From positions 5,539,001 to 5,603,000 of the forward strand of contig NZ_LT859959.1 in assembly GCF_900176205.1 (NCBI RefSeq): a stretch of 64,000 nt of DNA, written 5' to 3'. The position numbers and the translations under genes are program-made. Shown here one piece after another: positions 2,343 to 51,301 of this stretch. The notes under the pieces are model-generated. The model did no database searches, was not told where the DNA came from, and saw only the letters and a program-made list of their open reading frames with translations. Numbering within the stretch: the stretch's first letter is position 1; every line of letters starts with the position of its first letter. The DNA comes from Bradyrhizobium sp. ORS 285. Lineage in GTDB: Bacteria; Pseudomonadota; Alphaproteobacteria; Rhizobiales; Xanthobacteraceae.

Positions 2343-4997
2343 ATGTCAGACGGTCTGGTCGAGGCACGCGCACAGGAATCGACTCACGGCGAAGCTCAGA
2401 CGGTGGACGTTGCCGTCGTCGGCGCCGGGTTCGCAGGGTTGTACCTGCTGCATCGGTTGCGCAAGGCGGGTTTCTCCACGGTCGCGCTCGACACTGCCAA
2501 TGATGTGGGCGGCACCTGGTACTGGAACCGCTATCCCGGCGCGCGCTGTGACATCCAGACCGTCGACTACGGCTACACGTTCGATCCGGAGCTCGAAACT
2601 GCCTGGCAATGGTCGGAGAGATACGCCACCCAGCCGGAGATCCTGCGCTATCTCGGCTTCGTCGCCGATCGCTACGACCTGCGCCGCGACATCCGCTTCG
2701 GCACCCGCGTGCTCGGCGCCTCCTGGGATGAAGGCCAAGAGCGCTGGCTGCTGACGACCGACAACGGCCCTGCCGTGTCCTGCCGCCACTACATCATGGC
2801 CACCGGCTGCCTGTCGCAGCCGAAGCCGCCGGAAATCGACGGCGTGCATGACTTCAAGGGCGAGATCTACTTCACCGGCCGCTGGCCGCATGACGGAGTC
2901 GATCTCCGCGGCAAGCGCGTCGCCGTGATCGGCACCGGCTCGTCCGCGATCCAGTCGATCCCGATCATCGCCGAGCAGGCGGCGCAACTGACCGTGTTCC
3001 AGCGCACGCCGAACTTCGCGCTCCCCGCGCATAACGGCCCGCTGCCGGCGGATCGTGCCGCGCAGCTCGCGCAGGATCGCGCCGGCCTGCGCGAGCAGGC
3101 GCGCTGGTCGATGACCGGCGTGCCGATCCCGCCGGCCACCGAATTCAGCTGGGCACTGAGCGATGCCGAGCGCCGCGAACGTTTCGAGAAGATGTGGGCG
3201 TCGGGCGATCTCGTCGGCATGCTGACCCAGCTCTGGGCCGATCAGGGCGTCGACGCCGATGGCAATGCGCTGCTCGCCGATCTCATCCGCGAGAAGATCC
3301 GGGAGATCGTCAAGGACCCCGAGACGGCCGAGGCGCTCACGCCTCACGATCATCCGTTCGGCGCCAAGCGTCCGTGCCTCGACACCAACTACTACGCGAC
3401 CTTCAACCGCCCGAACGTGACGCTGGTGAACCTGCGCAAGGAGCCGATCGCGTCGATCACCACTGGCGCCATCAAGACCGACAAGCGCAGCTTCGACGTC
3501 GACGTCATCGTGTTCGCGACCGGCTTCGACGCCATGACCGGCGCGATCCGCGCGATTCATCCGATCAAGGGCCGCGGCGGCAAGTCGCTCGACGCCAGCT
3601 GGGCGAATGGCCCGGAGACCTATCTCGGTCTCACCGTCGCCGGCTTCCCCAATCTTTTCCTGATCACCGGTCCCGGCAGCCCATCCGTGCTGTCCAACAT
3701 GGCGGTGTCGATCGAGCAGCATGTCGACTTCGTCGTCGAGCGCCTGGCCGCGATGCGCGACGCCGGCTTCACGACGATCGAGCCGACCGAGAAGGCGCAG
3801 GACGGCTGGATGCGCCACATGGCGGACTGTTCGACCGTCACGCTGCACCGGCTCGCCAACACCTGGTACACGGGCGCCAACGTGCCGGGCAAGCCGCAGA
3901 CGCTGATGCCCTACACCGGCGGCGTGGGGCCGTATCGCGGCATCTGCAACGAGGTCGTGAAGCGCGGCATGCTCGGCTTCAAGCTCACGGGGCCGGACGG
4001 CGCGACACAGTGCAACGACGGCGAGATCGTGAAACTGCAGCCGGATGTCCGGCTGGTGCTGAACATGCTCACCGAGATGAACCTGCCGCCGATCGAATCG
4101 ATGGGCGCGCAGGGCGCGCGCGACTTCATCGCCGAATTCAACAAGGCCCGGCCGCCGGGCCGCCCCGTCGGCGAGGTCAAGGACGGCACGCTGCCAGGCG
4201 CCGACGGCCCCCTCGCCTACCGCCTTTACCGGCCAGCCACGCCCGGGCCGCATCCGATCGTCGTGTACTTCCATGGCGGCGGCTGGGTGCTCGGGGACGA
4301 GCAGTCGGACGATCCGTTCTGTCGCGACCTATGCCGCCGCTCCAACATGATCTTCGTCAGCGTGAACTACCGCCACGCGCCGGAGCACCGCTTCCCCGCC
4401 GCGGCCGAAGATGGCTATGCCGCGGCGAAATGGGTCTCCGAGCACGCGGCAGAGCTCGGCGGCCGCGAGGGGCCGGTGCTGGTCGCGGGCTGGAGCGCCG
4501 GCGGCAACATCGCCGCGGTCACCTGCCAGTTGGCGCGCGACCGCGGTGGGCCCGCGATCGGCGGTCAGCTCCTGGTGTGTCCGGTGACGGATTGCAGCTT
4601 CGATCGTTCGTCCTACACCGAGAACGGGGCCGGCTACTTCCTCACACGCGGGCTGATGTACTGGTTCTGGGACATCTACTGCTCGCCGGCGGATCGTACC
4701 GACCCGCGCGTCTCGCCGCTGCGCGGCCAGCTGAAGGGATTGCCGCCGGCCTACATCGTCACCTGCGAGTTCGATCCGCTGCGTGACGAGGGCATCGCCT
4801 ATGCCGAGGCCCTGTCGGCCGCCGGTGTGCCGGTCGGCCAGCTCAAGGCGCGCGGCCATTTCCACTCGTCGTTCACGATGGTGGACGTGGTCATCACCGG
4901 CGTCGGCGGCCGCATCCAGATGGCCGAGGCGCTGCAGGCATTCACACAGTCCGCGGATGACAGCAGCGCGCCGGAGATCAACGCCGCCGCGAGCTAG
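2343..4997 (+). CDS. Baeyer-Villiger monooxygenase fused to an alpha/beta-hydrolase (esterase)
   Basis: An 884-residue bifunctional enzyme. Residues 1 to about 560 form a type I Baeyer-Villiger monooxygenase: FAD motif GAGFAG at 27-32, [15 protein letters not shown] at 56-70, NADPH motif GTGSSA at 197-202, and [10 protein letters not shown] near 345. Residues about 600-870 form a hormone-sensitive-lipase-type hydrolase: oxyanion motif HGGGW at 644-648, nucleophile S718 in GWSAGG, D811 or D815, and H839. Known chemistry: the oxygenase turns a ketone into an ester or lactone, and an esterase then opens it, so the fusion could channel the product. The fingerprint normally written FxGxxxHxxxWP reads [12 protein letters not shown], with Phe177 in place of His. 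A GGGAGG Shine-Dalgarno precedes the ATG. The substrate is unknown. The gene stands alone and its stop overlaps the convergent FUSC stop by 4 bases. Confidence 0.9.
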
Positions 4998-6892
4998 CGC
5001 GCGTCGACGGCCGTCTTGCGAAAGGCTGCCGGGCGTTCGGCGAGCTTTGCCGCCGCCTGCGCCAGGACCGTCGTGCCGCTGGCCATCTCGGCCGGCAGCC
5101 GGCGGGCCATTGCGAGCAAGGCACGCGCGGCGCGCACCGGGTCCGTGCCGATCCGGTGCAGCCGCTCCAGCGTCGCCGCGCAGCGCCGCTTGACACCGGG
5201 CGACGGCGCGCATGCGACAAACTCGCCGAGCTGCTCGACGGCCTGTCCGACGTACAGCAACGCCAGCGCATCCTCGGCGAGGCGCGGCGTCGGATACGCG
5301 GCGCGTTCACCCCAATAGACGGCGAGCAGAACGCGATGATGCAGCAGCGCGCGCCATTGCTTGCGGCGGTCCGACTGCAGGGCAGTGGCCGCGAGATGTT
5401 CGAGATCGTCGATCATCGCATATCTGACGGCCTCGTAGCGGCGGCGACTATCGACCGGATAGATCAGGCTGAAGGCGATCAACCCGACCACCGGGCCTGC
5501 GACCACCGCGAGACTGGCCATCAGCGAATGTTCGAAGGTCATGGTCTGCGGCCAGCTCGGCTGCAGCATCAGCAGCAGCACCATGTTGACGTCGAACGCC
5601 AGGCGCTGGGTCAGGCGATGCGACGACAGCGGCGCACCGAGCAGGATGAAGGGCACCATCGCCAGAACCGCACCGAGCGATCCCCCGACATAGGGCCAGA
5701 CCAGCCAGCGGCAGATCAAGGCGAGGCCCACACCGAGCACCTGTCCGGCGAGCACGTGAGGCAGGATGGCCGCCGGCTTCTCGAAGGTCGAGAACACCGA
5801 CAGCATGATCGCCGTTCCCAGCATCATGAAGCCGCCCATGTCCCAGCCGGTCACGAGCCAGACCAGGCCGGTCGCCAGCATCGCGACGAGGGCGCGCAGC
5901 ATCGCGCGGCGCGCCAGCATCCAATCGCGATGCAGGAGCGGCTCTGCAGCAGGGTCTCTGTCGAGATCATCCAGGCTGCTCGTGGCTGCGGCCAGATCGT
6001 TCAGGACTGATGTCAGTGACCCCTGCGGATGTGTAGCGGCCGCAGCCTCGTACAAGCGCTGCAGCGCCAGCGCGGACGATCCGCAGTCGGAGAGCTTCGT
6101 GTCTGCCACCTGGTCGACGAGCGTTGCGTCACTTGCGCGACTGTCGTCCGAACGCAGCCACAGCACGGCCGAGACCTGCGCGGCCAAGACGGCGCGGACC
6201 TTGCGAACCAGCCGCCGCCGATAACGTGAGCCCGCACCATGCAGGTCGAGCTGACCCTCGAGCGCGGAGATATCCGAGAGGATCGAACGCTGCTCATTCT
6301 CCGAGACCGGCGCTCCCGTGAGCCGCGCCACGATGTCGGCGATCAGTCGCGCGTTGAGATGCCGTACTTTCTCCAGCACCGACACATCGTCGCCGGGCGC
6401 GGCGAACAGCAAGCCGACAATTAGCGCGGCCAGAATGCCGACACCGACGGTCAGCACGCGGTCGGTCCCCAGCGCCAGCACATGCTCGGGATGGGCTGCG
6501 TCGAGCAGCGCCACCATCGCCGCCGAATAGCCGGAGAGGATCGCGGCATAGGACGCGTAGCCCCGAACGAGATTGCCGGCGAAGGCGCACAGGCCGATCC
6601 AAAGCGAGATGCCGATCACGAGCGTCATCGGGTCGCCGCGCGCGACGCGCATCAACGCGAGGCCGAACAGCACACCGATGATTGTGCCGGCAAGCCGGGC
6701 CGCGCTCTTTTCCAGAAGATGTCCGCGCAGCGGCTGCGAGGCCGCCCACACTGTCATTCCCGCCCATTGCGGGTGCTCCAATCCGGCCAACCAGGCCAAC
6801 AGCAGCGCGAGGCAGGCGGCGATCGCCGTGCGAAAGCCGAATACCAGCTTGGCTCCGTCGAAGCCGAGCCGCGACGTGGTTGGCGCATTCAT
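4994..6892 (-). CDS. FUSC-family membrane protein (aromatic acid or drug efflux type)
   Basis: A 632-residue inner-membrane protein with the FUSC/AaeB layout. A first bundle of about six membrane helices (residues 18-165) is followed by a cytoplasmic helical region (about 170-330), a second bundle (about 335-480) and a soluble C-terminal domain. The hallmark [15 protein letters not shown] follows the first helix. E. coli AaeB of this family exports hydroxybenzoic acids with a periplasmic partner AaeA; no such HlyD-type partner is present here. The start ATG overlaps the stop of the MarR gene by 4 bases (ATGA), so the two are translated as one operon and the pump is probably controlled by that repressor. 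The substrate is not deducible. Confidence 0.85.
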
Positions 6893-7549: not shown

Positions 7550-8050
7550 TCAACGCCGGGGCGAGTTGGCGAGCGGCTCACGTCCCTGCAGATCGGGCTC
7601 CGATCGGCTCATGGCCCTGCGTGCCGCAGTGACGCGGAGCTTGCGCCTGATCCACCACGCGCTCACCGCGACCGTGAACCAAGCCGCCGTCGCCGCGACA
7701 AAGGCGATCGCGACACCGGATCGGACCAGCGCGGAGAACAATGCAGCAAAAGCGAGCAGGCCGATGCTGCCGAGCGCCGCGCCCGCGGTGTCGAGCGCCG
7801 CTGCTTCGCGTCCGCGCCGCTCGCCGGTCAGTCCCTCCTGGCGCTTGCGCCTGATCTCATGGGTCTCGATCAAGGTCACGCTGGCGCAGAAGATCGCCGG
7901 CAGCGCGAGAAAGAGGCCGCCGATCGCAGCACCGAAGCCCTTAGCGATCAGTCCCGTTACGACCGTCGCCGCGCCGCCGAGCGCGAAGCGGACCACATAT
8001 TCATGCCACTTGCCGTCCTTCAGCGATGATGGAGACAAGCGGATCAGCAT
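7550..8050 (-). CDS. DUF3147-type membrane protein (second of pair)
   Basis: A 166-residue protein starting at the ATG at 8050 (MLIRLSPSSLKDGKWHEYV). It opens with the charged segment SSLKDGKWHEYVVRFALGG and has about four membrane helices: GGAATVVTGLIAKGFGAAIGG, LFLALPAIFCASVTLI, a charged loop rich in Arg and Glu (IETHEIRRKRQEG), then two more helices and a basic tail. It is similar in type to the preceding gene. The start codon shares one base with that gene's stop (TGATG), indicating translational coupling. Function unknown; proteins of this family are small integral membrane proteins without a described activity. It is the last gene of the PAP2 operon. Confidence 0.75.
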   Translation of the reverse strand: MLIRLSPSSLKDGKWHEYVVRFALGGAATVVTGLIAKGFGAAIGGLFLALPAIFCASVTLIETHEIRRKRQEGLTGERRGREAAALDTAGAALGSIGLLAFAALFSALVRSGVAIAFVAATAAWFTVAVSAWWIRRKLRVTAARRAMSRSEPDLQGREPLANSPRR

Positions 8051-8397
8051 CACGCGCCTCCGGAGAAGATCGCTTGCAGCCCGAACGCGGCGACCAGCCA
8101 CACCACGGTCGCAAGCAGGCTCGCCGTGAGCGCGCGCAGATGAAGTCGCATCAAAAGCTGACACACGGTCACGCTGTAGAGACAGAGCGCGACGGCGCCG
8201 AACATCATCGAACGGCTCTGGACGGCGGCATAGGCCGCGCCATGCGTCACCACGGCAACGCCGAGTGTCGCCAGAGCTACCGACGGCGCGGCGCCGAACA
8301 AGCCGGCAAAACTCTTCGGACGCAGCACATCGCCGATCATGGCGAAGGCCGAGACGATGACGCCGCCGACCACAAAGCGAATGAGATATTCGGTCAT
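8050..8397 (-). CDS. DUF3147-type membrane protein (first of pair)
   Basis: A 115-residue, four-helix membrane protein beginning MTEYLIRFVVGGVIVSAFAM. It has the DUF3147 pattern of a short polar start, a Gly-rich first helix, and a second helix after LRPKSFAGLFGAAPSVAL. Its start overlaps the stop of the PAP2 phosphatase by 4 bases and its stop overlaps the next start by one base. The three genes therefore form a single coupled operon. The two DUF3147 proteins may act as a heterodimeric pair, as do other twin short membrane proteins; this is inference from adjacency. No catalytic motif is visible. Confidence 0.75.
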   Translation of the reverse strand: MTEYLIRFVVGGVIVSAFAMIGDVLRPKSFAGLFGAAPSVALATLGVAVVTHGAAYAAVQSRSMMFGAVALCLYSVTVCQLLMRLHLRALTASLLATVVWLVAAFGLQAIFSGGA

Positions 8398-9023
8398 GTG
8401 GGACTGGCTCCGTCCTGCCCATAACCGGTCCACAGGCGCAGCCCGCGTTCGACCAGAGCCCCCATCAGGAATCCCGCGGCGACATCGCTGGCCCAATGCG
8501 CCAGGATGAGGATGCGCGTGGCGCAAAGGCCGAGTGCGATGCTCCTCAGTCCAATCCGCACCGGAGCCGGCAGCGTGCTCGCGCCCGAGTACAGCGCTCC
8601 CATATGCAGCGCGTGCCCTGACGGGAAGGCATCCTCCGCGCGCCCTGACAGCTGCACGCCGTCGAGATGACCTCGCAACGTCTCACGGTCCGGCCGCGTC
8701 TGGTTGAACACCGATTTCATCACATGCGGCAGCGCCGACACGGCAACGGTGACGAGAAGTGCGTGGTTCGCAGCGCGTTGAACCGAGCGGGCTTGGCCGC
8801 GGCTGATGATCCATCCGACCGCGCTCAGCGCCAGCCAGACCTTTTCATCCGCGCCCCATGACAGACCGCGCCCGAGCGTTTGAACGGACGGCACGGTCGC
8901 GCGTGCCGCAAAATCCGCGATCGTCCGGTCGATCTTGGTCGGCTTCACGCGGATCGTGGCACGGAGACCCGGCGGTTTCGATCGCGTCGGCGGGGTGAGG
9001 CTTCTTCCGATCGTGCTGTGCAT
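8394..9023 (-). CDS. PAP2-family membrane phosphatase
   Basis: A 209-residue integral membrane phosphatase. All three signature motifs are intact: K103-x6-R110-P111 (KSVFNQTRP), P134-S-G-H137, and R170-x5-H176-x3-D180. H137 and H176 would be the phospho-acceptor and nucleophile partner. Family members remove phosphate from lipid phosphates such as phosphatidic acid or undecaprenyl diphosphate at the periplasmic face. About four or five membrane helices are visible. The ATG at 9023 has no strong Shine-Dalgarno, so a slightly later start is possible. It heads the operon with two DUF3147 proteins, suggesting a role in membrane lipid metabolism; the exact substrate is not clear. Confidence 0.85.
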   Translation of the reverse strand: MHSTIGRSLTPPTRSKPPGLRATIRVKPTKIDRTIADFAARATVPSVQTLGRGLSWGADEKVWLALSAVGWIISRGQARSVQRAANHALLVTVAVSALPHVMKSVFNQTRPDRETLRGHLDGVQLSGRAEDAFPSGHALHMGALYSGASTLPAPVRIGLRSIALGLCATRILILAHWASDVAAGFLMGALVERGLRLWTGYGQDGASPT

Positions 9024-45771: not shown

Positions 45772-46287
45772 ATGAGCGATAATGCAGTGCCCACACAGGC
45801 CGGAAGCAGGCCGTTCCTGTCGTCCGTCATGCAGATCGAGCCGCAATGGATCGACTACAATGGCCACCTCAACATGGCCTATTACAACGTGATGTTCGAC
45901 CGCGCGATCGACCAGATCTGGGCCGAGCTAGGCATCGGCCCGGCCTACATGAAGGAGCGCCAGGGCTCGACCTTCACCGCCGAATGCCATGTGCGGTACT
46001 TGCGCGAGATCCATCTCGGCGATCCCGTCCAGGTCGCGGTGTGGCTGATCGCCGCCGACGAGAAGCGGCTGCACACGTTCGAGGAGCTGCGCCACGCCGA
46101 GGAAGGCTGGATCTCGGCGACCTCGGAGAACATGTCGGTGCATATCGACATGACCAGGCGCAAGGTCGCGTCGTTCCCGGCGGACATCCAGGATAACATC
46201 AGCCTGACGTTGCAAGCACATGCTGCGCTGCCGCGCCCCGATGGCCTGGGCCGGGCCATCGGCATGCCGGCGAAACGATCAGTCTGA
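45772..46287 (+). CDS. Hot-dog-fold thioesterase
   Basis: A 171-residue acyl-CoA thioesterase of the 4-hydroxybenzoyl-CoA thioesterase type. The active-site block is WIDYNGHLNMAYYNVMFDRA (Asp, Gly-His and Asn at residues 27-33), followed by the ECHVRYLREIHLGDPVQV strand region and SVHIDMTRRKVASFP. It probably hydrolyses short or specialised acyl-CoA esters in the cytosol; betainyl-CoA-type thioesterases share this look. The ATG at 45772 has AAGAG upstream. Its last nine bases overlap the end of the convergent amidase gene. Substrate unknown. Confidence 0.85.
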   Translation: MSDNAVPTQAGSRPFLSSVMQIEPQWIDYNGHLNMAYYNVMFDRAIDQIWAELGIGPAYMKERQGSTFTAECHVRYLREIHLGDPVQVAVWLIAADEKRLHTFEELRHAEEGWISATSENMSVHIDMTRRKVASFPADIQDNISLTLQAHAALPRPDGLGRAIGMPAKRSV

Positions 46288-47799
46288 TCGCACCCAGTCC
46301 GGCAGCCGCTCGAACCAGGGCTGCGCTTCTTCGAGCTGGCGGGCGAGTTGCAGCAGGCGGGCTTCGTCGCCGAGGCGGCCTGTGAACTGCACGCCGAGCG
46401 GCAGGCCGTCGGCGGTCCAGTGCAGCGGCACGCTCATCGCCGGCGTGCCCGTCAGATTGGCGAGTTGCGTGAACGGGACATATTGCAGGCTGTCGCGGGC
46501 GATCTTGTCGATCATGCCGTCGAGCGCGCCCCAGCGCGTCAGCAGTCCGAGCAGGCCGACGCGGTCGAGCATGTCGAGCAGGGTCTGCTCGGCGGTCGAG
46601 GGATCGCCCTGCCCGTGCCGGATCGGCGGATGCGCGAGCGTCGGCGTCAGCAGCATGTCATAGCGCGTATGGAAACGCGCGAGCGCGCGGGCAAAGCCGT
46701 TCCATTTCAGAAGTTGCGTGGTCAGTGCGCCCGCCGAAATCGCGCCGCCGAGCGTCGACAGCACCCGCGTCAACAGCTCGAACTCCTCACGCTTCGCGCC
46801 CTTGGCGCGGGCATCGGCCACCAGTGCCGCGACCTGGCCGAAATAGATGTGCAGGAACGAGGTCGCGAGCGCGGCGCCGTCGATGTCGGGCGTCGCTTCC
46901 TCGACCTCGTGACCGAGCCCTTGCAGCAGCTTCGCGGTCGTCTCGACCGCAAGCTTCGCCTCGGCGTGAACCTCGGTGCCGATCGGCGACGACGTCGTGT
47001 AGCCGATGCGCAGCCGGCCGGGATCGCGCGCCATCACGTTGGCGAAGACGACGCCGGGCTCGGCCACCAGAAACGGATCGCCGGGCTCGGCGCCCACGAT
47101 GACGTCGAGCACCAGCGCGGTGTCACGGACGCTGCGCGAGATCACGCCTTCGCAGGACGCGCCAAACCAATATTCGCCGAAGCCCGGCCCCGACGAGACC
47201 AGGCCGCGCGAGGGCTTCAGTCCAAACAGGCCGCAGCAAGCGGCGGGAATGCGGATCGAGCCGCCGCCGTCATTGCCGGCCGCCATCGGCACCACGCCCG
47301 AGGCGACCGCCGCGGCGGCGCCGCCACTGGAGCCGCCAGGCGTATGCGCCGCATTCCACGGATTGCTGACCCGGCCGAAGGCTTGGGAGTCGCTGACGCC
47401 CTTGAGCGCGAGCTCCGGCAGATTGGTCTTGCCGAAGATCACCAGGCCCGCTTCGAGATAGCGCCTGACGACGGAGGCATACTCGACGGCGGCCACGGCG
47501 GACAGCGCCTTGCTGCCATAGGCGGTCGGCAGGCCCGCATAGTCCTGCGCGCAATCCTTGATCAGGAAGGGCACGCCGGTGAACGGGCCGGAGGCCAGCT
47601 TCGCCAGCTGTGCGCGCGCCTCGCGCTCCATCAGCCTGCAGACGGCGTTGGTCCGGGGCTGGGCCCGCTCGTTCTGCGTCAGCGCGAGCTGCAGCAGCTC
47701 GGCCGCGCTGGTCTCGCCCGCCTTCACCGCTGCGGCCAGCGCCGTCGCATCGCGCTGCAGGTAGTCCCGAACGTCCACGCTGCCCTCCCCATGCGCCAT
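46279..47799 (-). CDS. Amidase signature-family hydrolase
   Basis: A 506-residue amidase. The Ser-cisSer-Lys triad is visible: K81 in PFLIKDCAQDY, S157/S158 in TPGGSSGGAAAAVASG, and nucleophile S181 in GNDGGGSIRIPAACCGLFGL. The length and the C-terminal LTPTLAHPPIRHG region are typical of stand-alone amidases hydrolysing carboxamides in the cytosol; GatA would need GatB and GatC partners, not present here. The start MAHGEGSVDVRDYLQRDA is the first Met. It is convergent with the thioesterase gene, overlapping by nine bases, and divergent from the roadblock module. The natural substrate is unknown. Confidence 0.88.
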   Translation of the reverse strand: MAHGEGSVDVRDYLQRDATALAAAVKAGETSAAELLQLALTQNERAQPRTNAVCRLMEREARAQLAKLASGPFTGVPFLIKDCAQDYAGLPTAYGSKALSAVAAVEYASVVRRYLEAGLVIFGKTNLPELALKGVSDSQAFGRVSNPWNAAHTPGGSSGGAAAAVASGVVPMAAGNDGGGSIRIPAACCGLFGLKPSRGLVSSGPGFGEYWFGASCEGVISRSVRDTALVLDVIVGAEPGDPFLVAEPGVVFANVMARDPGRLRIGYTTSSPIGTEVHAEAKLAVETTAKLLQGLGHEVEEATPDIDGAALATSFLHIYFGQVAALVADARAKGAKREEFELLTRVLSTLGGAISAGALTTQLLKWNGFARALARFHTRYDMLLTPTLAHPPIRHGQGDPSTAEQTLLDMLDRVGLLGLLTRWGALDGMIDKIARDSLQYVPFTQLANLTGTPAMSVPLHWTADGLPLGVQFTGRLGDEARLLQLARQLEEAQPWFERLPDWVRSD

Positions 47800-48037
47800 T
47801 GGCTGCCGTCATCGTAGCTGATTCTGGCTGCAACAGAGGCGCAGTTGCGCCGAAAGCGGCGACATCGCGGCATCCCGAAGGCAATCCTGGCGGTATGATG
47901 CTTGGCCTCGGTCGATTTGACGGCCGGATTGCGCATCTCGCCCTGATTTTAGTTAATTTGATTCAGATCATTCGTCGCGTTCCTTGCGTCGGCCTAACCT
48001 TACGCATCGTTAGTTGCGTAGAGTTGACGAGAGAGCG

Positions 48038-48838
48038 ATGGGACGCCTCGCAAGCCTGCTGAGCAGAGCGCACGGACCGCATGACGATGTCGCGGCCGTC
48101 CCCGTGACCACCGCCGACTACTTCATCCTGCTGTCGCGCGCGATGGAGAACCTGCCCGATTCCAGTCCCGAGCGGCGGGCCGAAGTCTATCAGTCCGCAC
48201 GCCAGGCGCTGGTGACCCAGCTGCGGGCGATGGATCCGCCCGTCTCCCGATCCCGCATCAAGGCCGAGCAGCGCGCGCTGGACGACGCGGTGGAGACGCT
48301 CGAAACCCGGGCGCAGACCGCACCGGATCCGACGGACGACCCTGAAACTAATCAGCAGCCAGCCGATCCAGAGATTTCAAATCTTTCAATTGCACCGAGT
48401 GAAGACGACACCATGACCCAGCACCAGTTTCAATCCAGGTTTGCCCCCCGCCCCGCCGTCGAGGAGAAGCCGATGTCACGGCTCGATGAAATCAACCGCG
48501 TGCTGCGCAAGCTGCAGAGCGACTCCTTTGGCGTCGAGGCCTGCGCCTTGATCTCCGAGGACGGGCTGATGATCGCGAGCGTGCTCGCCGCCGACATGGA
48601 GGAGACGCGCGTCGCCGGCATGACGGCGACGTTGCTGTCGCTCGGCGGCCGCGCCGCGATGGAGCTCGGCCGCAGCCATCTGCAGGAGGTCATCATCCGC
48701 GGTGAGTCCGGCTATGCGGTGCTAGTCAGCGCCGGCCGCGGCGCGCTGCTGCTCGCGCTGACCAACGAGAATAGCAAGCTGGGCCTGACCTTCTTCGACA
48801 TGCGCGAGGCCGTCCGGTCGCTGCAGAAGGTGCTGTAG
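48038..48838 (+). CDS. Roadblock/LC7-domain protein with N-terminal helical domain
   Basis: A 266-residue cytosolic protein. About residues 25-90 (TADYFILLSRAMENLPDSSP, then EVYQSARQALVTQLRAMDPP) form a helical segment that I recall in many rhizobial proteins. A Pro/Asp-rich linker leads to a C-terminal roadblock/LC7 domain (about 148-266). The pattern includes SRLDEINRVLRKL, ACALISEDGLMIASVL, MTATLLSLGGRAAMELGRSH and VLVSAGRGALLLALTN. Roadblock proteins such as MglB act on small GTPases or as dimeric scaffolds; no GTPase gene is near. I use the ATG at 48038 with GAGAG upstream. It leads a four-gene module with a diiron protein. Confidence 0.82.
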   Translation: MGRLASLLSRAHGPHDDVAAVPVTTADYFILLSRAMENLPDSSPERRAEVYQSARQALVTQLRAMDPPVSRSRIKAEQRALDDAVETLETRAQTAPDPTDDPETNQQPADPEISNLSIAPSEDDTMTQHQFQSRFAPRPAVEEKPMSRLDEINRVLRKLQSDSFGVEACALISEDGLMIASVLAADMEETRVAGMTATLLSLGGRAAMELGRSHLQEVIIRGESGYAVLVSAGRGALLLALTNENSKLGLTFFDMREAVRSLQKVL

Positions 48839-48885
48839 CAGTCATACAAATAGGCCGGCGCGCCGCGCCGGCAGGAGTAGCGTCC

Positions 48886-49662
48886 ATGGCCAATACCGTC
48901 CTCTATGATGACGGCGTTCACAAGAACATTCTGCTGGAGGATTTCAGCGCCGGCGATCTCGCCGTGCAGGCGAACCAGCATCTGATCATCCATGACCGCG
49001 TCGGCATGCTGCTCGATCCCGGCGGCCACAAGGTCTACTCCAAGGTGCTGGGCGAGACCTTCAGCGAGCTCTCGGGCGGCCGCCTGAAATATCTGTTCCT
49101 GTCGCATCAGGACCCCGACATCGTCGCGGCCATCAATGGCTGGCTGATGACCACCGATGCCGACGCCTACATCTCCTCGCTGTGGACGCGCTTCGTGCCG
49201 CATTTCGGCTTCGACCACATCGTCGCCGACCGGCTGAAGCCGATCCCCGACGAAGGCATGGTGTTCGATCTCGCCGCCTGCAAGCTCTATGCGCTGCCCG
49301 CGCACTTCCTGCACAGCGAGGGCAATTTCCAGCTTTACGATCCGATCTCGAAGATCCTCTACAGCGGCGATCTCGGCGCCTCGATCGGCGTCGACTACAT
49401 CGTGACGCGCGACTTCAAGGCGCATATCCGCTTCATGGAGGGCTTCCACCGCCGCTACATGGTGTCGAACCGCGTCATGAAGGCGTGGGCGGACATGGTT
49501 CGGCCGCTTGATATCGAGATCATCGCCCCGCAACACGGCGCGTTGTTTCCGGACCAGGCGATGTCACGCCAGTTCATCGAGTGGTGCGCAGGCCTCGAAT
49601 GCGGCATCGATCTGATCACGCCCTTGTTCAAGGTGCCGGTGTTCAAGGTGCCGGCAGGCTGA
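48886..49662 (+). CDS. Metallo-beta-lactamase-fold diiron protein (ODP-like)
   Basis: A 258-residue protein of the flavodiiron/ODP branch. The metal ligands align as H74-x-D76-x-D78 (SHQDPDI), H140 or H143 in PAHFLHSEGN, D162 in YSGDLGAS and H217 in APQHGALF. In flavodiiron proteins the first motif is HxExDH; here the last His is Ile79, and there is no flavodoxin domain. The oxygen-binding ODP of spirochetes has the same general fold and couples oxygen to chemotaxis signalling. A role in sensing oxygen, NO or redox state is inferred. The gene lies 47 bases after the roadblock gene and two bases before the OmpA-like gene. Confidence 0.8.
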   Translation: MANTVLYDDGVHKNILLEDFSAGDLAVQANQHLIIHDRVGMLLDPGGHKVYSKVLGETFSELSGGRLKYLFLSHQDPDIVAAINGWLMTTDADAYISSLWTRFVPHFGFDHIVADRLKPIPDEGMVFDLAACKLYALPAHFLHSEGNFQLYDPISKILYSGDLGASIGVDYIVTRDFKAHIRFMEGFHRRYMVSNRVMKAWADMVRPLDIEIIAPQHGALFPDQAMSRQFIEWCAGLECGIDLITPLFKVPVFKVPAG

Positions 49663-49663
49663 C

Positions 49664-50401
49664 ATGCTGGCGCCCTCCCCCAACATCGTGTCTTCTCCGC
49701 CTGCGCCGCGGGCCGATGCGTCTATCGTCGCCGGTGAAGATGCGCCAACCTGGCTCGCGGCCGCCTTTGCCATCGCGGGGACGCTGGTCGCGGTCATGTC
49801 GGCCGCGCTCTGGCAACAGGCAGCGGCTGCCCCGGACACCGTGGCCGCAGCCGCCGTGCCGCAGACGATGATCACCCAGCCAGCGCCGAAGCCGTCGGAC
49901 ACGCCGGTGCCTCTTCCCGCACTGATCACGGCTCCTCCGATGCCCTTGCCCTCGGCGATCCCGATCGAGCCGCCTGCTCCGCCCGTCTCAACGGCCCGCA
50001 CCGAGCCCCAGAGCGCCGCGAAGGCGCCCGCCGAATGCTTCGCACCGCTGGCGATCGCGTTCGAGCGCGGCAGCACGCGCCCCCATCCGGGCGACATGAA
50101 GCGCGCACAGGCGGTGCTGCAAAAGGCGCTCGCGCGCCATGGCGATGCGACCATCCTGATCGAGGGACACGCCGATGCCAGCGGCAGCGAGGACCTCAAC
50201 GTGCTCTTGAGCTACTCGCGCGCCAAGGCCGTCGCGGAGCTCTTGAAGAAGGACGGCATTTCACCGCGGATGTCGGTGAGCGCAGCCGGCGCGGGCCTTG
50301 CGCGCGGCGACTCCCAGGCGGCCGCGAACGATCGCAAGGCTGTTCTGCGCATTGCCGGCGTCGACGATTGCGATCACCTCACGGAAGCGAAGCGACCATG
50401 A
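49664..50401 (+). CDS. Membrane-anchored OmpA-like peptidoglycan-binding protein
   Basis: A 245-residue protein. A short cytoplasmic start is followed by one helix (about residues 29-50, WLAAAFAIAGTLVAVMSAAL), a long Pro/Ala/Thr linker (55-115) and an OmpA domain. The OmpA domain has PLAIAFERGSTRPHPGDMKR and the peptidoglycan-binding core IEGHADASGSEDLNVLLSYS. It would cross the periplasm and bind the cell wall, like MotB or Pal. A Cys before PLAIAF may pair with one near the end (DDCDH). It starts two bases after the diiron gene and overlaps the next gene by 4 bases, so it is part of the module. Confidence 0.82.
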   Translation: MLAPSPNIVSSPPAPRADASIVAGEDAPTWLAAAFAIAGTLVAVMSAALWQQAAAAPDTVAAAAVPQTMITQPAPKPSDTPVPLPALITAPPMPLPSAIPIEPPAPPVSTARTEPQSAAKAPAECFAPLAIAFERGSTRPHPGDMKRAQAVLQKALARHGDATILIEGHADASGSEDLNVLLSYSRAKAVAELLKKDGISPRMSVSAAGAGLARGDSQAAANDRKAVLRIAGVDDCDHLTEAKRP

Positions 50402-51042
50402 CCTTCTATGCCATCGTGAGCGGCGTTGGTGCCGCCATCCTGCTGCTGACCGCAGGCTATCTGTTCGGGGCGCGCCAGGGCGCGGTCGCCCGCGACCATC
50501 TGCGGCGGCAGGTGCAAGTGCAGGCCGCCAGCCTCAATCAGTTGCAGGACCAGAGCAGCCACGACGCCAGCGAGCGGGAAACGAGTCTGCGCAGCGCGAT
50601 CCAGGAGGTGCTGGCGCCGCTGGTCGAGCGCGAGCGCATCTCGCTCGATCTCGCGCAACTCGCCACGCGCCCCGGCCGGCGGCGCGAACTGGTGCCGCTG
50701 CTCGACAGGATCGCCGAGGTCGGCCGCTTCGAGACCGTGCTGTTGACGAACGAGGAAGGGCTGCCGCTGGCGGCCAACACAGCCGGCCATCACACCGAGC
50801 AATTGGCGGCGGCGGCGACGCGGCTGGCGCTGGTCGCCGAGAAGATCGCCGACGAGAACCACATCGCGCCGCTCTCGGTCATGCTGCGCGACGAAAGCGA
50901 GACGACGACATTGTGCCGCATCTTCCGGGTGCAGGATCAGACGCTGACCTTGACGGCGCTGTCCAACGATGCGCGGCTCGCCTCCGTCGCGCTCGATCCT
51001 GCGCTTGCCAAGGTCCAGGTCGCGCTGACCGCGCCGGCTTAA
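50398..51042 (+). CDS. Membrane-anchored roadblock-like protein
   Basis: A 214-residue protein. One N-terminal helix (MTFYAIVSGVGAAILLLTAG) is followed by a coiled-coil-like stretch (RDHLRRQVQVQAASLNQLQD) and a C-terminal domain of about 110 residues. That domain follows the roadblock pattern: LLDRIAEVGRFETVLLTNEE, GLPLAANTAGHHTEQLAAAA, TRLALVAEKIADENHIAPLS and QTLTLTALSNDARLASVALD. The roadblock assignment is from pattern only and less certain than for the first gene. It overlaps the OmpA gene (ATGA). A plausible model has it recruiting the soluble roadblock protein to the membrane. Confidence 0.68.
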   Translation: MTFYAIVSGVGAAILLLTAGYLFGARQGAVARDHLRRQVQVQAASLNQLQDQSSHDASERETSLRSAIQEVLAPLVERERISLDLAQLATRPGRRRELVPLLDRIAEVGRFETVLLTNEEGLPLAANTAGHHTEQLAAAATRLALVAEKIADENHIAPLSVMLRDESETTTLCRIFRVQDQTLTLTALSNDARLASVALDPALAKVQVALTAPA

Positions 51043-51060
51043 GCTGCTCTCAAAAGCGCA

Positions 51061-51096
51061 AAGGGCGCAGCACCTCTTGCGAGGCACTGCGCCCTT
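51061..51096. terminator. Hairpin between convergent roadblock module and DUF1328 gene
   Basis: AAGGGCGCAG (51061-51070) and CTGCGCCCTT (51087-51096) form a perfect 10-bp stem with a 16-base loop. The plus strand has only a short CTT after it; the minus strand reads TTTGCGCTTTT. It probably ends both transcripts, more strongly on the minus strand. Confidence 0.65.
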
Positions 51097-51127
51097 CGCC
51101 GACCTCATTGTCAGGGGATGAGGCCGA

Positions 51128-51301
51128 CTACACGCGGGATCGGCCGCGGGCGAGGCCCACGACAGCCGACACCAGGAACAGCACGATGGCGATGAAGAAG
51201 ATGATCTTGGCGATCTCGATGGACGCACCGGCGATGCCGCCGAAGCCGAGGATGCCGGCGATCAATGCGATAACCAGGAAGGTGACGACCCAGCCTAACA
51301 T
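51128..51301 (-). CDS. DUF1328 small membrane protein (YtjA family)
   Basis: A 57-residue protein with two membrane helices: [20 protein letters not shown], the family's [16 protein letters not shown] core, then [17 protein letters not shown]. The length and motif match YtjA/DUF1328. The ATG at 51301 has GAGG nine bases upstream; the frame continues upstream but without family similarity. Relatives are often stress-induced in alphaproteobacteria, which fits a nearby GGAAC at 51392-51396 on the minus strand, although no convincing -10 element accompanies it. Function unknown. Confidence 0.85.

Follow-up and report, generated by a model that had tools for sequence, protein, structure and literature searches.

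A four-gene roadblock–ODP operon in Bradyrhizobium: a candidate gas- or redox-sensing module at the cell envelope

A compact operon in Bradyrhizobium sp. ORS 285 encodes a soluble roadblock protein, a diiron protein of the ODP family, a membrane-anchored OmpA-like protein and a second, membrane-anchored roadblock protein. It lies on contig NZ_LT859959.1 within a stretch of 64,000 nucleotides (positions 5,539,001–5,603,000), referred to here as the window and numbered from its first base. We consider it fairly probable that the four proteins make up a gas- or redox-sensing module in which roadblock proteins form a platform at the envelope, and which functions in the Bradyrhizobium lineage without a small Ras-like GTPase. 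Both the sensing of gas or redox state and the output of the module are inferred from sequence; the ligand is probably O2. Comparison of gene neighbourhoods indicates that the conserved core is the soluble roadblock together with ODP, to which exchangeable anchors and outputs are joined. No sensing system of this kind appears to have been described before.

The four genes occupy positions 48038–48838, 48886–49662, 49664–50401 and 50398–51042, all on the + strand, and encode proteins of 266, 258, 245 and 214 amino acids. They are separated by 47 bases, by a single base and finally by a 4-base overlap, coordinates that confirm the positions, strand and tight spacing given in an initial annotation made from the sequence. 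The composition proposed there is likewise supported, by Pfam for genes 1–3 and by AlphaFold2 and Foldseek for gene 4. Gene 2 matches the ODP family PF19583 with an E-value of 5.1e-69 (232.5 bits against a cut-off of 27.2), and the solved oxygen-binding diiron proteins PDB 6qrq (E 3.5e-66) and 6qnm (E 1.7e-62), which we take to be the ODPs of Thermotoga maritima and Treponema denticola, belong to the same family. Residues H74, D76, D78, H140, H143, D162, Q216 and H217, which include the metal ligands of the family, are shared with 6qrq and are invariant both in all 108 rows of an alignment from related loci (not deduplicated, with some genomes present twice and a few loci lacking a roadblock) and in all 17 rows from a group not linked to roadblock genes. 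The PF19583 match and the shared ligands bear out the ODP-like identity first suggested, and conservation of the ligand residues suggests that the diiron site can assemble. Gene 2 is a probable sensor of O2, NO or redox state. Five further residues (H32, H48, K49, N84 and D110) show little or no variation across the 108 rows from related loci, are replaced in the majority of the 17 unlinked ones, and are candidates for a partner-binding surface.

The ODP domain is able to act as an input, as its fusions elsewhere indicate: among four long ODP frames scanned (of seven fetched), three end in GGDEF and one in a HisKA-HATPase-REC-Hpt kinase. These fusions, to GGDEF, PAS-GAF-GGDEF or a hybrid histidine kinase, are found in the Pseudomonadota loci L124, L126, L127 and L128 and would be one-chain diiron sensors.

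The product of gene 1 is a roadblock protein, as the initial annotation held: its match to Pfam Robl_LC7 (E 8.8e-14, residues 158–241) scores 51.5 bits against a cut-off of 23. Its closest relative in the PDB is the Thorarchaeota roadblock 7f8m (E 1.6e-24). In profile comparisons the family as a whole (window 48509–48760) is far nearer to 7f8m (E 2.9e-35) than to MglB (E 5.3e-4). The domain is preceded by an N-terminal extension of approximately residues 1–125, to which the rest of the genome offers a single, weaker match (41% over residues 21–93, with one in-frame stop). Six other loci have an AAA ATPase in place of this extension, which is the strongest candidate for the part that binds a client. 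The Methylocystaceae loci L008 and L016, in which a short roadblock directly precedes ODP, encode additional roadblocks (7729–8589 and 4535–5503, respectively) whose N-terminal extension resembles that of gene 1.

Gene 4 required more than a profile search, its Robl_LC7 match falling below the cut-off (E 8.1e-4; 19.5 bits against 23, and 21.5 bits in a genome search). An AlphaFold2 model based on 48 aligned rows, taken from 120 listed relatives and from the loci described below, has a mean predicted local distance difference test score (pLDDT) of 80.7, with residues 101–190 at 86–91 and those from 191 onwards at 63–81. It shows a hydrophobic segment at approximately residues 5–23, a long helix and a roadblock fold at 98–211, the latter arranged as in roadblock domains: one helix, two strands, a second helix, three strands and a final helix. 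When the model was compared with the PDB using Foldseek, MglB was the top match (E 1.9e-6), and the best 50 of 82 matches at E ≤ 0.001 were roadblock proteins or large Ragulator/Rag, GATOR and dynein complexes. Model and matches together show that the initial guess of a roadblock was right, and they rule out a membrane protein without that fold. Across the entire 7.8-Mb genome, Robl_LC7 matches genes 1 and 4 and nothing else.

The product of gene 3 matches Pfam OmpA (E 8.7e-10) and has a single N-terminal hydrophobic segment (residues 31–49); its C-terminal OmpA domain is taken to be periplasmic. In 33 OmpA proteins encoded directly before a membrane roadblock (the window included), N179, S183, R186, C125, C236, G24 and E25 are present in every case and D171 in 30. 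We take the D and R to be the conserved residues of the OmpA peptidoglycan-binding motif, and their retention supports the predicted attachment to peptidoglycan proposed at the outset. In the membrane roadblock, residues G20, L22, G24, G28 and R32, within or just past the hydrophobic helix, are invariant in the 48 rows; conservation this tight suggests a specific membrane partner, for which the helix of the OmpA protein would be the natural candidate.

To place the operon in context, genome contigs were scanned for ODP. The 348 relatives found came from several phyla, many from metagenome bins; we retained the best 80, a sample that consequently leans towards close relatives, and scored the loci with profiles built from the same 80. 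In 68 of the 80 loci a roadblock gene is found on the 5′ side of ODP, no more than 1 kb away, and in 75 one is present somewhere in the examined stretch, a conserved order that rules out a chance cluster. The expectation that gene order would be kept in relatives holds; the conserved core, across several phyla, is roadblock–ODP, and the OmpA protein with the membrane roadblock is one of several partner sets. The others are ParA with a soluble roadblock, a PAS-histidine kinase with a REC-DUF4388 response regulator, and an AAA ATPase fused to a roadblock. OmpA is found in 38 loci, a membrane-type roadblock in 42 (the two together in 37), a response regulator in 35, ParA in 18 and the AAA-roadblock fusion in six; a histidine kinase, in some cases perhaps unrelated, lies within 5 kb of ODP in 36 loci, and kinase and regulator occur together in 31. 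All 11 alphaproteobacterial loci (by our own taxon grouping) have OmpA and none has a kinase, whilst kinases and regulators are mostly found in Myxococcota/Deltaproteobacteria (28 and 28 of 38 loci). A protoglobin, a heme protein, is encoded beside the roadblock or ODP in L025, L036, L074 and L079, the Pfam match in L036 having an E-value of 4.1e-30.

These neighbours bear on the alternative that ODP is an enzyme (a hydrolase, or a scavenger of O2 or NO) for which the roadblocks and OmpA merely provide a location at the envelope. Gene 2 does match Pfam Lactamase_B (E 3.2e-19), and the metallo-beta-lactamase fold is common to flavodiiron reductases; however, Pfam detects no flavodoxin or electron-donor domain in its 258 residues, the domain is fused elsewhere to GGDEF and histidine kinase, and kinases and regulators are found close to ODP at the frequencies given above. 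We regard an enzymatic role as improbable.

OmpA and ParA do not occur together in any of the 80 loci (Fisher p 1e-6, uncorrected for kinship and within limits of 4–5 kb; L008 has a ParA-type gene beyond the limit). The small gene following ParA in L058 folds as a roadblock in a 13-row model (mean pLDDT 81.8; MglB at E 1.4e-6), its family profile aligns with that of the membrane roadblock at E 9.3e-5 and 59% probability, and in L022, L025 and L065 ParA is fused to a roadblock-like partner. OmpA and ParA thus look like alternative devices for placing the second roadblock, an interchange that, if real, predicts the same job, placement, for both.

Of the 35 regulators near ODP, 33 have a receiver domain and 29 have DUF4388, which we take to correspond to PATAN; one has a LuxR-type DNA-binding domain. 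PATAN regulators bind cyanobacterial pilus motor proteins, according to passages of PMC12288463, and with ParA and MglB-like parts in the module this would fit a system for surface motility or polarity, placing type IV pili or other machinery according to oxygen. Such a role overlaps with the sensing module favoured here, and we think it rather unlikely: no motility gene is found among the four operon genes, and DUF4388 has no match in the genome that contains the window, compared with matches in three of 14 control genomes.

As a control we examined 398 Pseudomonadota genomes, of which 202 match PF19583 and 154 exceed its cut-off, and inspected approximately 1.5 kb on each side of the 30 best-scoring ODP loci. 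A roadblock adjoins ODP in 12, and a further locus at a contig end, L108, has only a weak second roadblock; all 13 belong to a single family, f38. A reverse search with the roadblock profile (E ≤ 1e-12) found matches in 29 of the 398 genomes and gave 30 loci, the window included, in which ODP adjoins the roadblock in 18, a small GTPase in 10, both in four and neither in six. The GTPase of the f38 cluster matches PF00025 at E 3.7e-13 and 1.3e-12, and protoglobins adjoin roadblocks in f38 loci. Two of these loci, L139 (3984–12946) and L140 (6913–13027), contain several roadblocks, ODP, a protein of approximately 233–238 amino acids and a small Ras/Arf-like GTPase, with protoglobins in L139. The f38 cluster may stand close to an ancestral state of the module.

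GTPases are regulated by roadblock proteins, MglB among them, and the small GTPases beside 10 of the 30 roadblock loci raise the possibility that the pair in the window does no more than regulate, in the usual way, a Ras-like GTPase whose gene lies elsewhere, ODP providing the input. Against this, PF00025 matches in the genome only in frames of 465 and 920 amino acids (L141 and L142, described by frame length only), the f38 GTPase query finds no match there (in a search run without a positive control), and two related small GTPase queries and a P-loop pattern reveal no small GTPase in the open frames of L001–L081. We judge this explanation improbable, and a simple MglAB or Rup locus is ruled out, no GTPase being encoded among the four genes. 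The statement in the initial annotation that no MglA-type GTPase lies nearby stands for the four genes and for L001–L081, but does not extend to f38, where ODP, roadblocks and a small GTPase are found together.

Within Bradyrhizobium, ODP is present in 11 of 265 species, which rules out the operon as a feature of the genus at large. The linkage, which the initial annotation proposed to follow across Rhizobiales, reaches other phyla without being general in Bradyrhizobium. A photosynthetic reaction centre is encoded in 27 of the 265 species, including 10 of the 11 ODP carriers (the exception is G102) and 17 that lack ODP. In an alignment of the upstream regions of 11 distinct Bradyrhizobium genomes, some rows of which stop before the ATG, the only fully conserved run of at least five bases is an 18-bp block (47956–47973, + strand). 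It contains a putative FixK/FNR-like box, TTGATTCAGATCAT (47958–47971), 66 bases from the ATG at 48038, which departs by one mismatch from TTGAT-N4-ATCAA and from TTG(A/C)-N6-(T/G)CAA. Passages of PMC5582078 give these as FixK-type consensus sequences and describe such boxes before denitrification genes also. When the bases of the 303-bp upstream stretch were shuffled, an equally good match arose in 10 of 5000 cases. Allowing one mismatch, the window as a whole (1–64000) contains 20 copies of TTGA-N6-TCAA where 8.7 would be expected, and none of 100 shuffles gave as many.

The proposed mechanism can be set out as follows. Low oxygen, acting through a regulator of the FixK/FNR type, would switch the operon on. 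Binding of O2 (or NO) at the diiron site would change the state of ODP, which would contact the soluble roadblock encoded by the neighbouring gene and hand this state over. The soluble roadblock would pair with the membrane roadblock, whose helix would in turn pair with that of the OmpA protein, fixing the platform to the wall. Docking or release would then control a client that the soluble roadblock recruits through its variable N-terminal part. The client slot is occupied by an AAA ATPase in some other Proteobacteria, whilst in Myxococcota the usual neighbours are a histidine kinase and a REC-DUF4388 regulator. The gas or redox sensing first proposed is supported indirectly, by homology to solved oxygen-binding diiron proteins, the GGDEF and kinase fusions, the protoglobins and the FixK-like box.

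Diiron sites of the ODP type may bind NO or report iron, and the signal read by the same module might not be O2 but iron, NO or the general redox state. This version overlaps with the favoured one and draws some support from the occurrence of FixK-type boxes before denitrification genes (PMC5582078, in part); as passages of PMC7666581 present the characterised ODP as a sensor of O2, we consider it unlikely, if worth keeping in mind.

A number of observations weigh against the sensing module in the form given above. A roadblock is missing from the examined stretch in five of the 80 loci (L048, L072, L075, L076 and L079) and is not within 1 kb upstream of ODP in 12; 15 loci have no partner set in the examined stretch and 42 lack OmpA. 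In the Pseudomonadota control, 17 of the 30 best-scoring loci have no adjoining roadblock, so that only some members of the ODP family are linked to a roadblock and the family as such does not require one. No roadblock–ODP fusion was found in the frames searched, and contact between the two proteins is accordingly deduced from adjacency. Comparison of the profile of the soluble roadblock with that of the membrane roadblock gave no significant match (E 0.091). The four Bradyrhizobium genes encode no kinase, regulator or NTPase through which a signal might leave. The FixK-like box was noticed post hoc, may instead serve the divergent amidase gene and, with up to one mismatch, is found in none of 65 loci outside Bradyrhizobium (where chance would yield less than 3%); as a general feature of the module it is rejected.

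Known systems share individual elements with the operon. The ODP of T. denticola is an O2 sensor in chemotaxis, coupled to a soluble chemoreceptor and CheA, as passages of PMC7666581 describe; here its neighbours are roadblocks, and no chemoreceptor or Che domain is detected by Pfam among the four genes. With the MglA/MglB polarity module the operon has the roadblock fold in common, MglB providing the best Foldseek matches of the membrane roadblock, but it lacks a small GTPase and adds ODP and the OmpA protein. Rup group 1, as set out in a section of PMC4316618, also places an inner-membrane OmpA-domain protein beside signalling genes; it includes a GTPase, a coiled-coil protein and a diguanylate cyclase/phosphodiesterase or kinase, whereas no GTPase is present among the four window genes. 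The actinobacterial conservons (CvnABCD), treated in the same section, likewise have a roadblock in a compact operon, and the Myxococcota form of the module resembles them further in having a histidine kinase; conservons contain a GTPase and CvnC, whilst the window operon has neither GTPase nor kinase, and counterparts of CvnA and CvnD are not among its genes. That section of PMC4316618, which describes Rup, MglA and conservon neighbourhoods, does not mention ODP, and the word ‘lactamase’ is absent from the main text. A precedent for a gas sensor joined to a roadblock is provided by HGbRL, a globin–roadblock protein that passages of PMC4476040 describe as a heme globin in one chain, limited to the genus Methylacidiphilum; in our case the gas-binding domain is a separate diiron protein found across phyla. 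No published roadblock–ODP module was found among the literature matches listed, in a search that excluded most subscription literature, and within those bounds the earlier claim that no system of this composition has been described holds. Nor did we find literature on BRADO5611–5615, locus numbers guessed around BRADO5615, the ORS 278 relative of gene 4.

A wider generalisation, plausible although we place it somewhat short of probable, is that roadblock proteins act here as adaptors between gas sensors (diiron ODP or protoglobin) and exchangeable anchors or outputs, and not as GTPase regulators, forming a widespread and undescribed class of signalling system; in photosynthetic Bradyrhizobium this would take the form of a wall-anchored oxygen gauge for low oxygen that has no Ras-like GTPase. 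If correct, oxygen sensing would be tied to the spatial organisation of the bacterial envelope, roadblock proteins would operate without their usual GTPase, and the ODP family of oxygen sensors would gain a second signalling context beyond chemotaxis. For photosynthetic bradyrhizobia, the module may bear on life at low oxygen.

The operon is probably horizontally acquired. In an ODP tree the Bradyrhizobium carriers form one clade (seven rows, support 100/98) beside Methylocystaceae and a betaproteobacterium, within a group of mixed classes (98/89, intermediate forks weaker), and 21 label changes are needed over the whole tree, the minimum being 10 (the bootstrap not having quite converged). 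Within the 64-kb window there are no RNA elements at Rfam gathering scores and no tRNA according to ARAGORN. UvrD was sought in eight non-carrier Bradyrhizobium and five were examined in detail. In three of these, genes for a thioesterase, a DUF1328 protein and UvrD are contiguous, and an amidase gene and the operon are both missing; in the window and in L006, the amidase and the four genes lie between the thioesterase and the DUF1328/UvrD genes. The operon is thus an inserted block. The amidase gene (46279–47799, − strand; PF01425, E 1.2e-95), divergent from the operon and at the same insertion site, is a probable passenger of the insertion. The remaining two non-carriers (L152 and L154) have approximately 2.6 kb of other DNA at the site, and the interval that separates the thioesterase gene from the DUF1328 gene (window 46287–51128) may be an insertion hotspot.

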